The translations under genes were made by a program, and so were the position numbers. Source: Gammaproteobacteria bacterium (lineage in GTDB: Bacteria > Pseudomonadota > Gammaproteobacteria > Eutrophobiales > Eutrophobiaceae). Taken from it: a DNA stretch of 64,000 nt. A model generated the notes under the pieces. That model worked only from the letters and a program-made list of their open reading frames with translations. It was not told where the DNA came from and ran no database searches. The stretch is taken from NCBI GenBank assembly GCA_947480335.1, contig CANKCB010000007.1, positions 62,001 to 126,000 on the forward strand, written 5' to 3'. Position 1 is the stretch's first letter; each line of letters begins with the position of its first letter. Shown in pieces: positions 19,548 through 24,601 of the stretch.

Positions 19548-19667
19548 CCGATGTCTCTTTTCATACGCAGTATAAACAATCAAGAGATAAGTAATGTCTC
19601 CGGTCTGGTTTCATGCAGTAACGGATCGGTAGTTCTATAAATACAATTAGTCTTGAGGAATCCCGTA

Positions 19668-20108
19668 ATGAAACGGTTACTGACACTTGCGACTGTGCTA
19701 CTAATGATTTCAGTGACAGCCTCTGGTCAATCAACAGACGTGGAAGCGACACGGGTGATGGCTGAGCAGGGTGACGCCTATGCCCAGGTATATCTGGGTA
19801 TGATTTACGATCAGGGAAAAGGCGTGCCCGAGGATAATGCCGAAGCTTTCAAATGGTATAAACGGGCATCAGATCAGGGTTTACCTTCGGCCCAATACAG
19901 TATGGCCACCCTTTTTGCAAAAGGTAGCGGCGTTGCCAGGGATGATTTTGCCGCCTATGTCTGGTATGCGGTAGCTGCCGTTCAGAGTCAGGATGGTGCT
20001 GCACAGGCCCGTGATGAAATTGCCATTAGTCTCAGTGCTGAACAACTGGAGGCCGGTCAGAAGTTGGTAAAGCGCTGCATAGAATCAGGTTATAAAGACT
20101 GTAGCTGA
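19668..20108 (+). CDS. Exported Sel1-repeat protein
   Basis: A 146-residue protein with a signal peptide (MKRLLTLATVLLMISVTASG) and two to three Sel1-like repeats: GDAYAQVYLGMIYDQGKGVPEDNAEAFKWYKRA and GLPSAQYSMATLFAKGSGVARDDFAAYVWYAVA. Sel1 repeats are helical scaffolds for protein contacts. The start at ATG 19668 is preceded by GAGGA 8 bp upstream; an earlier TTG in frame (19653) overlaps that ribosome binding site. It is convergent with the paralogue gene at 20142. A second, larger Sel1 protein is encoded nearby on the other strand. Confidence 0.85.
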   Translation: MKRLLTLATVLLMISVTASGQSTDVEATRVMAEQGDAYAQVYLGMIYDQGKGVPEDNAEAFKWYKRASDQGLPSAQYSMATLFAKGSGVARDDFAAYVWYAVAAVQSQDGAAQARDEIAISLSAEQLEAGQKLVKRCIESGYKDCS

Positions 20109-20141: not shown

Positions 20142-20855
20142 CTAAAGGAAGCTTTCCAGCAGATCTCGCTCTTCCTCACTGATATTCTTGTTCTGCAAGC
20201 GGTTCTTGATCATATCCTGACTGATATGATTGTGTTCAATCAGTTGCTTTTTCTCTTCCGGCAACAACGTGTCCAGAAAAAACAGGTTACTCGGTGGAGT
20301 AAAACCGGCTAGTACAATCGAATTGATTTCATCCGAAATGAGTCTGAAACGGCCGTTTTTTAGTTGCAAGCGCTGATCGGCAAAAGCCTTGTCGACGATG
20401 CCAGCAGAGTAAATCGACTGGATTTCCATCCGGTAACTGAAGATATGGCTGGCGTCTTCATTTTTGGCGATACTGGCTTCGATGTTGGTCAGTCGTGGAT
20501 TGATCAGCTGCTTGATTGTTTCGAGTATTTGCTGGTCTTCCAGACGTTCGGAATAGATATCCAGAATGTTATCAATACCCAGCTGACTATAGGTGTCAGT
20601 ACTGAATAGTTCATTACTACGGTAGGCCAGCAACTTGTATGACCGGAAACCCAGGGTTGAATAGATATCTGACAAATCACGGATATACCGGTTAAAGCCA
20701 AGTGCACAGACGAGTTGGGAATGATTCAGACCCAGCTGAGCTGCGGCCTTGTTGATCTTGACGATAAAATCCTCGTTTTCATCAATGGTAATCCGGTAAA
20801 AAATCTTGACCAGTTCGGCATCAGAAGCAGTCAATAATTCAGTAAATCCCAGCAT
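20142..20855 (-). CDS. Unrecognised protein, paralogue B of a tandem pair
   Basis: I do not recognise this 237-residue family. There is no signal peptide or membrane segment; the composition suggests a mostly helical cytoplasmic protein. It is clearly homologous to the upstream gene at 20874-21599. Shared positions include an ALGFN/AFGFN motif, LGF, an LFSTDTY/IFTTDIY motif, NILDIY/NVLKIY, an EIQSIYSAGI/EMNAIYSSGI motif and a C-terminal ISQDMIKNRL...ISEEERDLLESFL block. The gene follows its paralogue by 18 bp and is probably co-transcribed. The first third has drifted more than the last two thirds. Confidence 0.75.
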   Translation of the reverse strand: MLGFTELLTASDAELVKIFYRITIDENEDFIVKINKAAAQLGLNHSQLVCALGFNRYIRDLSDIYSTLGFRSYKLLAYRSNELFSTDTYSQLGIDNILDIYSERLEDQQILETIKQLINPRLTNIEASIAKNEDASHIFSYRMEIQSIYSAGIVDKAFADQRLQLKNGRFRLISDEINSIVLAGFTPPSNLFFLDTLLPEEKKQLIEHNHISQDMIKNRLQNKNISEEERDLLESFL

Positions 20856-20873
20856 ATTCCGGTGTCTTCTTGC

Positions 20874-21599
20874 CTAGTTACGATTCATTCGAAGGTAGTC
20901 GCTCAGTACTTTGCGCTCATCTGCGCTGATACTTTTATCATTGATACGTGATTGTATCAATTCTTTCGGGATCAAGCCCTTGTTTAACAGCTTCTGTTTT
21001 TCTTGTGGCAGGATTGAGCTTCTAAAGAATATTTCACCAACTGGGATAATACGGTTTTCCACAATCATGGTTGCTTCATTCAACAAGGCCCGAAATCCAC
21101 AGTCCTGTCGATCCAGTCTTTCTTCCGCAAAGTCGATGCTTGCAATTCCCGAGCTATAGATGGCATTCATTTCCGTCTTGTATTTTTCGATAATCATCGT
21201 ATTGACGGTGGAATCAATTTCAGTCTCGATTTTTTCCAGTCTGCCACGTAATAAATATTGCATTACCGCATGCAGGTCTGTGTCAGAACGGACTTTTTCA
21301 TAGATTTTCAACACATTCTCAAGGCTCAGACGTTTGTAAATGTCCGTTGTGAAAATAGTGTTTCGTTCCTGCGCCAGCTCATTGAACGTGGCAAATCCAA
21401 GTATCGGCAGCACTTCAATCAGATATCTGGCGGCGGGATTAAATCCGAAGGCACTCAGTAATTGTTCCTTGCGCAGCCTGTAGCCGTTGTCTATTTCCTC
21501 AAGCGGAGGAGTAGAGCGTGAATCACCGGATCTGAATTTGTAGAAGCGCTGCAACAAGGCCTCTTCATTTTCATTTAGTATTTCATCAAAAATTGACAT
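20874..21599 (-). CDS. Unrecognised protein, paralogue A of a tandem pair
   Basis: A 241-residue protein of no recognised family, homologous to the next gene downstream. It starts MSIFDEILNENEEALLQRFY, has no signal peptide or membrane segment and looks helical. The middle (KIETEIDSTVNTMIIEKYKTEM) could form a coiled coil. The C-terminal block LIPKELIQSRINDKSISADE is the best conserved part between the two copies. It is 75 bp downstream of the Sel1/SPOR gene on the same strand, so mtdA, the SPOR gene and this pair may form one leftward transcription unit. Two kept, diverged copies suggest a hetero-oligomer, but this is inference. Confidence 0.75.
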   Translation of the reverse strand: MSIFDEILNENEEALLQRFYKFRSGDSRSTPPLEEIDNGYRLRKEQLLSAFGFNPAARYLIEVLPILGFATFNELAQERNTIFTTDIYKRLSLENVLKIYEKVRSDTDLHAVMQYLLRGRLEKIETEIDSTVNTMIIEKYKTEMNAIYSSGIASIDFAEERLDRQDCGFRALLNEATMIVENRIIPVGEIFFRSSILPQEKQKLLNKGLIPKELIQSRINDKSISADERKVLSDYLRMNRN

Positions 21600-21674: not shown

Positions 21675-22834
21675 TTATTTCAGCATTTTTTGCAGGATAC
21701 CAAAATTACGTATCCAGGGAGTAATCTGCTTTAACGAGTCCGGCAGGTTGGCTGCGGCCTGTTCTGCCTCGGCATAAGTAGTGTAAGCACCATAGAGGGC
21801 GTTATAGCGGGTAGTGCCATTAATCACAACTTGTATGTAAGCGGAATTATCTTCAATGTGATGCTGTTTCAGAAATTTTACGATGTCCGCTTCGTTGAGC
21901 ACGCTTCCGATCTGTATCGTATAGGTATCCGGCTTCTGTTGTGTTACCCAGTCCTCGCGTTTAATGCCATTGGTAGTCATTTCTGAGACTGTATAATTTG
22001 GGGCGGGTGTCGCTTGAGGTTCGGGTTCATTAACTGTCGGGGCGGACGGTGTTGTTTCGACACTGGCAACCGGTTCAACCGGTGTTGCCGTTTCACGAGC
22101 GGATAGCGCATTCAGTTTGGTTTTGGCTTCCTCCAGACCCTGCACGGCGGCTCGTTGATACCATTCCCTGGCACGCACCAAATCAGGTGTTACACCATAT
22201 CCGTTTTCATAAAAAATACCCAGGTTATACTGGGCCTGGGCAACATTCTTATCAGCGGCTTTCTCAAATAGTTGCAGCGCGGTGTCATAGTTTTTTTCAA
22301 CTCCGCGGGCAAAGGCATACATAACGGCCAGACTGTATTGTGCATTTGCATGGCCCTTGTCAGAGGCGGATTTAAATAATGCCGCTGCGCGATTATCATC
22401 CTGTGCCACACCCAGCCCACGGTAATACATCAAACCCAGATTGAACTGCGCATCGACCTGTCCGGCACTGGCTGCTTTTTCCCACCATTTGGCGGCTTCC
22501 GTATAATTTTGCGGAATGGTTTCACCCTTGAAGTATTTTGCACCCACCTGGTATTGCACTTCTACCTCGCCCTGTTCGGCTGATTTCAGGTACCAGGCCA
22601 GTGCCTGTTGCGGGTCGGCGATGACTCCGTGACCATAGTCATACATGATGCCCATCATTTTTGGGCTTGCGCATCACCTGCCTCGGCCATCGGCCGGAGT
22701 ATTTCGAGAGCATTCTTGTAATCACCCTTAATGTAGGCTGCACGACCTTCATCATAACCCTGCGCCATAACGATGGTTATCAAACAGAATGTGCCCAGTA
22801 CTATCGTGTAGAGTTGATTGCGTAATCTAGTCAT
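21675..22834 (-). CDS. Exported Sel1-repeat/SPOR-domain protein, apparently split by a frameshift
   Basis: The part from 22658 down to 21675 encodes 327 residues with five or so Sel1 repeats, a Pro/Thr/Glu-rich linker and a C-terminal SPOR domain (YTIQIGSVLNEADIVKFL ... YNALYGAYTTYAEAE). The missing start lies upstream in another frame: from ATG 22834 a 59-residue stretch gives a signal peptide (ending VMAQ), YDEGRAAYIKGDYKNALEIL and MAEAGDAQAQK, which is the beginning of a Sel1 array. It meets a TGA at 22657-22655 just after a run of five A (22658-22662 on the coding strand). One extra A would join the two frames perfectly. SPOR domains bind denuded peptidoglycan at division sites. The frameshift may be a sequencing error, slippage or a real mutation. 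Confidence 0.75.
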
Positions 22835-22864: not shown

Positions 22865-23725
22865 TTAAATAACCGTTTTCGCCAGTGTAAAGATTGCATC
22901 AGCATCCAGCACCAGATCATTCTGTTCAAACAGGCTGTTGATACATTGTCGTTGCAGTGCCAGTTTGGCCGGACCAAATCCGAGTGCACCCCAAACGATC
23001 TTGCCTGCCACCTGCTTACCTTTATCATTCATTCCTATACCGGCAATGCCTGCCGGGGGAACCGCATTTGCATCCAGTACAATTTCAAGGGACGGATTGT
23101 CCTGCCAGTCAGTCGTTTCCAGTAACCGTACACCGGCCGCCCCTGTTGCCATGACTATTTGCGCATCCTTCAGCTGGTCTATCCGTTGTTCACGGCTATC
23201 TGCTTCCAGCGGTTCGATTTGTACGCCATAGCGATCGTTCAGATGTTGGCAAGTCTGTTCAGACCGGCGCAGATTTCGCGAGGTGATAGCTACTCTGGCG
23301 CCTTCTTTGGCCAGCATCACCGCTGCGCGTCCACCGACCGGACCGGTACCGGCAAGTATAACGGCTTTTTTACCTTTAACACTCCCGCTTTTGAGTATGC
23401 TGGCGACTGCGGCAGCAGCGGTGGTATTGCAGCCATTGCAATCGAGCATGACGGATACCCGGAAATTATCAAAAAATACCCGTTTGACTGCATCCAGTAT
23501 GGCATCGCCAACGGTTACACTACTGCCCCCGATAAACAAGGCGGTGAATTTCTTGTTGGGTCCAGAACGGGTAAAGATGGCACCCTCCACCATGGACTGG
23601 ATCATATCGGGTACACAATGTGAGTAACCAATGACATGGTCAGCGCCACCATCGTAGGCGACTACCGTATCAAATACAGAAGGCTGGTTATCAGTATCAA
23701 GCTGGAACAGAAGTTTTTTCATCAT
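22865..23725 (-). CDS. mtdA: Methylene-tetrahydromethanopterin/tetrahydrofolate dehydrogenase MtdA
   Basis: MtdA oxidises methylene-H4F or methylene-H4MPT with NADP+ in C1 metabolism. The 286-residue length and the N-terminus KKLLFQLDTDNQPSVFDTVV, YDGGADHVIGY, MLDCNGCNTTAAAA and the Rossmann motif KKAVILAGTGPVGGRAAV match MtdA of Methylobacterium, and differ from MtdB, which lacks the LLFQxDTD start. The end is also typical (KIVWGALGFGPAKLALQRQCI). It is divergent from fchA, the next enzyme of the same route. The second ATG (23722) is an equally possible start. Immediately downstream, 30 bp away, is the start of the Sel1/SPOR gene. Confidence 0.9.
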   Translation of the reverse strand: MMKKLLFQLDTDNQPSVFDTVVAYDGGADHVIGYSHCVPDMIQSMVEGAIFTRSGPNKKFTALFIGGSSVTVGDAILDAVKRVFFDNFRVSVMLDCNGCNTTAAAAVASILKSGSVKGKKAVILAGTGPVGGRAAVMLAKEGARVAITSRNLRRSEQTCQHLNDRYGVQIEPLEADSREQRIDQLKDAQIVMATGAAGVRLLETTDWQDNPSLEIVLDANAVPPAGIAGIGMNDKGKQVAGKIVWGALGFGPAKLALQRQCINSLFEQNDLVLDADAIFTLAKTVI

Positions 23726-23977: not shown

Positions 23978-24601
23978 ATGATTAAAGAACAAAGTATTGA
24001 ATTATTTCTTGAAAACCTGGCCAGTAAATCTTCCACGCCTGGTGGAGGCAGTGCTGCGGCCATTATTGGTGCAATGGGCGCGGCGCTGGTCAGTATGGTA
24101 GCGAATTTTACCGTCGATAAAAAAGGCTATGAAAACGTGCATGCGGACATGCGAACGGTGTTGGACCGTTCAGAGAAACATCGTCGGGAATTTATAGATT
24201 TAATTCAGGCTGATGTGGATGTATTCAATCAGGTGATGGCGGCTTATGGGATGCCACGTGAAACTGACCAGCAGAAACAGAGTCGTTCGGATGCCATCCA
24301 GTTTGCACTGAAACAGGCTACCGATGTGCCACTGGCCTGCGCCACGCTTTGTCTGGAAGTGATTGAACTGTCACGTCAGGTAGCAGAAAAAGGAAATACC
24401 AATGTGATCAGTGATGCCGGTGTTGCTGTGCTGGCGGCAGAAGCCGCGCTGGGCAGCGCAGCATTGAATATCTATATTAATATTGCCAATATTAAGGACG
24501 CCGACTTTGTGAATGATCGTCGTCAAAAGCTGGAAACCATGCTGGCCTCCAGTGGTGATATTACCGAAAGAGTGTATGCACTAGTAAAGAGCAAGGTTTA
24601 A
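23978..24601 (+). CDS. fchA: Methenyl-tetrahydrofolate cyclohydrolase (FchA, cyclodeaminase family)
   Basis: A 207-residue protein of the formiminotransferase-cyclodeaminase family. It has the family N-terminus FLENLASKSSTPGGGSAAAIIGAMGAAL, with VANFTVDKKGY, and the later DAGVAVLAAEAALGSAALN segment. Stand-alone members of this length act as methenyl-H4F cyclohydrolase in methylotrophs, where the gene sits beside mtdA; the divergent mtdA here supports that role. The alternative, a glutamate formimidoyl cyclodeaminase of histidine breakdown, is less likely because no hut genes are near. ampD follows 6 bp later. Confidence 0.87.
   Translation: MIKEQSIELFLENLASKSSTPGGGSAAAIIGAMGAALVSMVANFTVDKKGYENVHADMRTVLDRSEKHRREFIDLIQADVDVFNQVMAAYGMPRETDQQKQSRSDAIQFALKQATDVPLACATLCLEVIELSRQVAEKGNTNVISDAGVAVLAAEAALGSAALNIYINIANIKDADFVNDRRQKLETMLASSGDITERVYALVKSKV

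Follow-up and report, generated by a model that had tools for sequence, protein, structure and literature searches.

The window, that is, the whole stretch of 64,000 nucleotides analysed here, contains two adjacent genes on the minus strand, A and B, which lie downstream of mtdA and of a gene for an envelope protein with SPOR and Sel1 domains. The features of the locus are the following:

20142..20855, minus strand: gene A, 237 amino acid residues, predicted to be all-helical, member of the A clade
20874..21599, minus strand: gene B, 241 amino acid residues, predicted all-helical paralogue of A and first of the pair
21675..22834, minus strand: gene for the SPOR/Sel1 envelope protein, directly upstream of B, frameshifted near 22660 in the present assembly and intact in congeners
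22865..23725, minus strand: mtdA, first gene of the run, in conserved order (Pfam Mpt_N, 5.4e-28)
23978..24601, plus strand: fchA, encoding methenyltetrahydrofolate cyclohydrolase, divergent from mtdA and part of the setting only (NCBIfam NF045657, 4e-95)

The two genes are separated by 18 bp, and BLASTP aligned their products over the full length with 31% identity, 54% positives and one gap column (E 3e-38). This similarity is far beyond chance, and A and B are true paralogues, which agrees with the original prediction of two tandem paralogues of these lengths on one strand. Likewise, no hydrophobic segment is present in either protein (the highest 19-residue Kyte-Doolittle mean is 1.32 in A and 1.04 in B), as had been claimed for membrane segments. 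When the window genome was searched with B, only B and A were matched at E ≤ 1 and no third copy appeared. Relative to three congeners, pN/pS of A and B is 0.14–0.26, with synonymous sites saturated, and both genes look to be under purifying selection. Promoter and terminator signals are near background. The mtdA and SPOR/Sel1 genes that had been recognised upstream were borne out by Pfam, which gave Sel1 (1.4e-47) and SPOR (1.1e-12) on the part at 21675–22658. The SPOR open reading frame had been given these limits; it is present, but it makes up most of a frameshifted gene, the start and signal-peptide-like region of which extend up to 22834, as seen when the reading frames were compared with those of three congeners. 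A second, short gene for a Sel1-repeat protein (19653–20108, plus strand) faces the 3′ end of A.

A known family was searched for in several ways. Against Pfam-A and NCBIfam, A and B gave a best E of 0.09, far below the curated cut-off, and when 36 members were scanned singly, at most one member matched any family (best E 0.019 in Pfam and 0.012 in NCBIfam). Across Pfam, NCBIfam, PHROGs and PADLOC, the 36 members gave weak, scattered matches only. The family phrog_3550, matched by four of the 36 members (best E 0.0022), was taken as a chance match; in two of ten rescanned members the match spans about 43 residues, mostly long-helix sequence. In the sequence search of the PDB, B had no match at E 1 and the profile gave one match, at E 0.97. 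No relatives were found for A in phages, for a family member of the third group in plasmids or for the 36-row family alignment in viral contigs, and the A model had no match at E ≤ 0.001 in a viral fold library. In the literature searched on mtdA gene sets, SPOR, Sel1, type IV pili and TOG/alpha-solenoids, no title or abstract describing the A/B pair was found. The claimed lack of a recognisable family therefore holds for A, B and the 36 members in the profile searches of Pfam and NCBIfam, and it is well supported that A and B are members of an uncurated, unnamed gammaproteobacterial family.

In the order to which the window belongs, 33 of 53 genomes have a match and 32 of them carry both copies, always adjacent on one contig, whereas a single copy, B, is present in G046, where transposase-like ORFs (named by eye) lie directly downstream of it. 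Of 369 genomes drawn evenly from the class, 22 matched, 18 of them outside the order and spread over nine other families; among 398 drawn evenly from the phylum, the window's own genome was the sole match. Fifty loci came from a scan of genome contigs, and almost all bear the title of uncultured gammaproteobacteria or proteobacteria; L032, L073 and L079 are titled Klebsiella pneumoniae MAG, carry genes of the uncultured gammaproteobacterial kind and are probably mislabelled. In a tree of 100 rows, which omits rows of less than 180 residues and four duplicates of named contigs (L109, L110, L112 and L114), all 37 A rows form one clade (100/100) and every A adjoins a B (37/37). An old and single duplication is well supported by this tree, and the pair is, as the original prediction held, both diverged and retained. 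Besides the window's order, A is found in three or more other families (G060; G184 and G296; G191), always directly after B, and B alone has a wider spread than A. A further group in the tree consists of second, unlinked copies of G264, G143, G391 and G171, the position of which is unsure because the tree builder warns of long branches meeting there. These second copies (L097–L100) lie near a Na+/H+ exchanger gene (by Pfam on L097 and L098, by eye on L099 and L100), and a gene for a MoxR-like ATPase is on the opposite strand in L097, L098 and L099 (by Pfam on L098, by eye on the others). In L099, the second copy and the exchanger gene are separated by a CMD-Rieske fusion gene. Taken as a family, these proteins are conserved and selected but have no curated entry. 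They occur in ten or more families of Gammaproteobacteria, many of which are known chiefly through metagenomes, and A and B offer a clean example of an old duplication whose two copies always stay together.

The typical gene order is fchA on one strand and mtdA, SPOR/Sel1, B and A on the other, often followed by a TonB-dependent-receptor-like gene (by eye). Among the 50 named loci, A is present in 33; the gene directly upstream of B is SPOR in 37 and mtdA in eight, and neither is seen in five, four of which start at or near a contig end (L035, L070, L076 and L081) and one of which has NadC in front (L073). The gaps between B and A range from −4 to 67 bp and are at most 21 bp in 31 of the 33 loci, a spacing as in a co-translated pair. 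In 32 of the 33 loci on named contigs that hold A, SPOR immediately precedes B, the exception being L035, which begins too near a contig end; A goes with B and, within what the contigs show, with SPOR. SPOR is accompanied by B without A in L059, L061, L064, L074 and L072 (the contig of L072 ends 312 bp past B), and SPOR–B occurs with no mtdA in the locus in L040, L052, L053 and L061. In L064, a Sel1-type gene is on the opposite strand right after B. The eight loci with mtdA directly upstream of B come from lineages without SPOR, have gaps of 29–148 bp and contain no A; B also directly follows mtdA in L101, L102 and L108. Since B can follow mtdA without SPOR or A, and SPOR–B–A is kept where mtdA is gone, neither neighbour is obligatory. 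In L104 and L073, B lies in an interval from NadC to PPS in which neither mtdA nor SPOR was found, and in G004, G018 and G035 the SPOR–B–A block is missing after mtdA. The original prediction had also suggested a hetero-complex, possibly of cytoplasmic partners of a division- or envelope-associated system. Its linkage part is sustained by the loci with A, but the mtdA–B loci without SPOR and A, and six order members in which SPOR occurs without A/B, speak against a tight partnership with the envelope or division. No neighbour of A/B is a pilus gene, and the examined loci showed no division gene beside the pair. In G118, the 3′ end of B is overlapped by a gene for an Arf/Ras-like small GTPase (L103:6555-7133), a piece of which follows B in G352. 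The GTPase query, which does detect its match in G118, had no match at E 1e-5 in any of the 53 order genomes, so the GTPase is not a general partner.

Structure prediction of each chain, which had been suggested as a check, gave all-helical AlphaFold2 models for both, with 16 helices and no strands in each (A: pLDDT 92.1, the other four A models 71–75, and pTM 0.84; B: pLDDT 86.9 and pTM 0.81). Twelve residues are invariant over 36 members from all groups, namely G52, F53, G68, D86, Y88, R120, Y140, E143, Y148, R161, R170 and E200 in B numbering. On re-alignment with VIA, HEAT-type chains came to the top for both models and the same TOG domain (4g3a) led both, with Z 7.8, rmsd 3.9 and 173 aligned residues for A and Z 8.8, rmsd 4.6 and 189 aligned residues for B, values that by the VIA guide may reflect merely a common helical arrangement, in a ranking confined to the folds listed by VIA. 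We read the models of A and B as small HEAT-like solenoids, and no tubulin link is claimed from the resemblance to TOG domains. They share with HEAT/ARM-type alpha-solenoids, including the TOG domains of MAST/Orbit and CLASP, the all-helical build, the similar size and the top VIA match. They differ in that the identity is 6–8%, Foldseek of both models against the PDB gave nothing at E ≤ 0.001 (best E 0.15 or worse), and there is hardly any sequence repeat, the best probability from hhalign of profile segments being 21% (residues ~143–166 against 200–223).

Across the 53 genomes of the order, the presence of A/B is nested in that of SPOR, which all 33 carriers have (Fisher p 1.6e-8, kinship ignored). 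Type IV pilus genes, scored as a match to PilM or PilT with the PilM fragment of the window genome (G000) counted as loss, occur in 44 genomes; SPOR is present in 38 of these and in one of the nine without (p 2.7e-5, kinship ignored; the weak SPOR match of G035, 3e-42 over half the length, was counted absent). A/B are associated with the pilus genes more weakly, being present in 32 of the 44 and in one of the nine (p 0.001, kinship ignored). The one carrier counted as pilus-less is G000, so that 32 of the 33 carriers have pilus genes. The six genomes with SPOR but not A/B also hold pilus genes (in G027 the SPOR match stops at a contig end), and six others have pilus genes and no SPOR. PilM is missing in 12 of 53 genomes and PilT in 12 of 53, both being missing in G004 and in seven genomes of the genus g15. 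The raw single-gene tables, again with kinship ignored, agree more weakly with the combined one, PilM being found in 31 of the 33 carriers against 10 of the other 20 genomes (p 0.0004) and PilT in 30 against 11 (p 0.005). Outside the order, PilT is present in 17 of 18 carriers of the family. As controls, FlhA of the flagellum showed no association with A/B (p 0.5), and neither FlhA (p 0.41) nor MtdA (p 0.67) was associated with the pilus. FlhA and PilM were the only systems tried before the pilus signal showed, and PilT was chosen afterwards as a check. The nine pilus-less genomes, namely G000, G004 and the seven of g15, amount to about three independent losses, and G004 is much smaller than its close relative G001 (2.2 vs 3.6 Mb), so the joint loss of SPOR, A/B and pilus there is weak evidence. 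The profile of A/B and pilus is a lead, not proof.

In G000 itself, the pilMNOPQ operon has an internal deletion relative to G001. Matches to PilM residues 1–102 and PilQ residues 518–712 stand back to back at about G000:C1:234022-234908 (L129:8023-8909), and the site lies inside the contig with both flanks conserved. Given this deletion and no match to PilT in G000, the type IV pili of the window organism are probably lost. The reading frames of A and B are still open there, and the frameshift in the SPOR/Sel1 gene may reflect decay of the same module or an assembly error.

Considering these data, we tentatively propose, with a probability of roughly 0.3, that A and B work in the cytoplasm as an adaptor pair, in an accessory role to a SPOR/Sel1 envelope factor of type IV pili. 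The two HEAT-like proteins would probably be in complex with each other and serve an envelope machine as an adaptor without enzymatic activity, jointly with the SPOR/Sel1 protein, which would be exported and bind peptidoglycan across the inner membrane from A/B. The proposed machine is the type IV pilus, and the trio would act as an accessory positioning or assembly factor, like FimV in Pseudomonas aeruginosa. About equally likely is that A and B are free-standing cytoplasmic adaptors with a partner encoded elsewhere, the mtdA/SPOR setting being an inherited position and not a sign of function. The loci with B between NadC and PPS, the second copies near the Na+/H+ exchanger gene and the GTPase gene overlapping B in G118 agree with such independence, but A is never seen apart from B, SPOR precedes B in nearly all loci with A, and SPOR–B–A is absent as a block after mtdA in three genomes.

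The place of B directly after mtdA in eight loci and in L101, L102 and L108 could also mean that A/B act as partners or regulators in the one-carbon (folate) module of MtdA and FchA, where B would bind MtdA or set its level, A would be a specialised copy and SPOR a later insertion. This is unlikely, as G019, G021 and G031 carry A/B but match no MtdA at 1e-20, many genomes including the genus g15 have MtdA without A/B, and the association of A/B with MtdA has p 0.08 (the MtdA fragment of G007 counted as present and genomes with weak matches alone as absent). Even less probable is that A/B and the SPOR/Sel1 protein serve polar growth or cell division. Division proteins such as FtsN are known to carry SPOR domains, and the SPOR gene is upstream of B in most named loci. 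Moreover, the SPOR protein RgsS and the Sel1 protein RgsF act in polar growth and division of Sinorhizobium meliloti (PMC7327166). But A/B and SPOR are absent from complete genomes of the order, such as G004, so any division role must be dispensable, and no division gene was seen adjoining A/B in the loci inspected; the distribution across genomes, with kinship ignored, favours type IV pili over division. If the pilus link is true, A, B and the SPOR/Sel1 gene would name a new accessory factor of a machine important in surface life and DNA uptake; if it is false, the family still merits a name and a profile.

For the proposed pilus accessory, two known systems offer a comparison. The Rgs proteins are alike in that SPOR and Sel1 envelope proteins cooperate with further partners, but there SPOR (RgsS) and Sel1 (RgsF) are on separate proteins, and nothing like A or B is named in the part of that account available to us (PMC7327166). 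In P. aeruginosa, FimV and PilQ require peptidoglycan binding for pilus placement (PMC5285504). No sequence family common to FimV and the A/B set was found. In its fullest form, which is improbable, the HEAT-like pair and the secreted SPOR/Sel1 protein would be a split scaffold flanking the inner membrane that installs the pilus at peptidoglycan sites in a large set of uncultured gammaproteobacteria, with three genes doing a FimV-type job. The likeness proposed with the polar landmarks FimV/HubP would lie in the combination of a peptidoglycan-binding periplasmic part with a partner-recruiting helical-repeat part, as the available parts of the two reports present it (PMC5285504, PMC12918733), whereas FimV spans the membrane as a single protein carrying LysM and TPR, and here the parts are encoded by separate genes, with SPOR in place of LysM.
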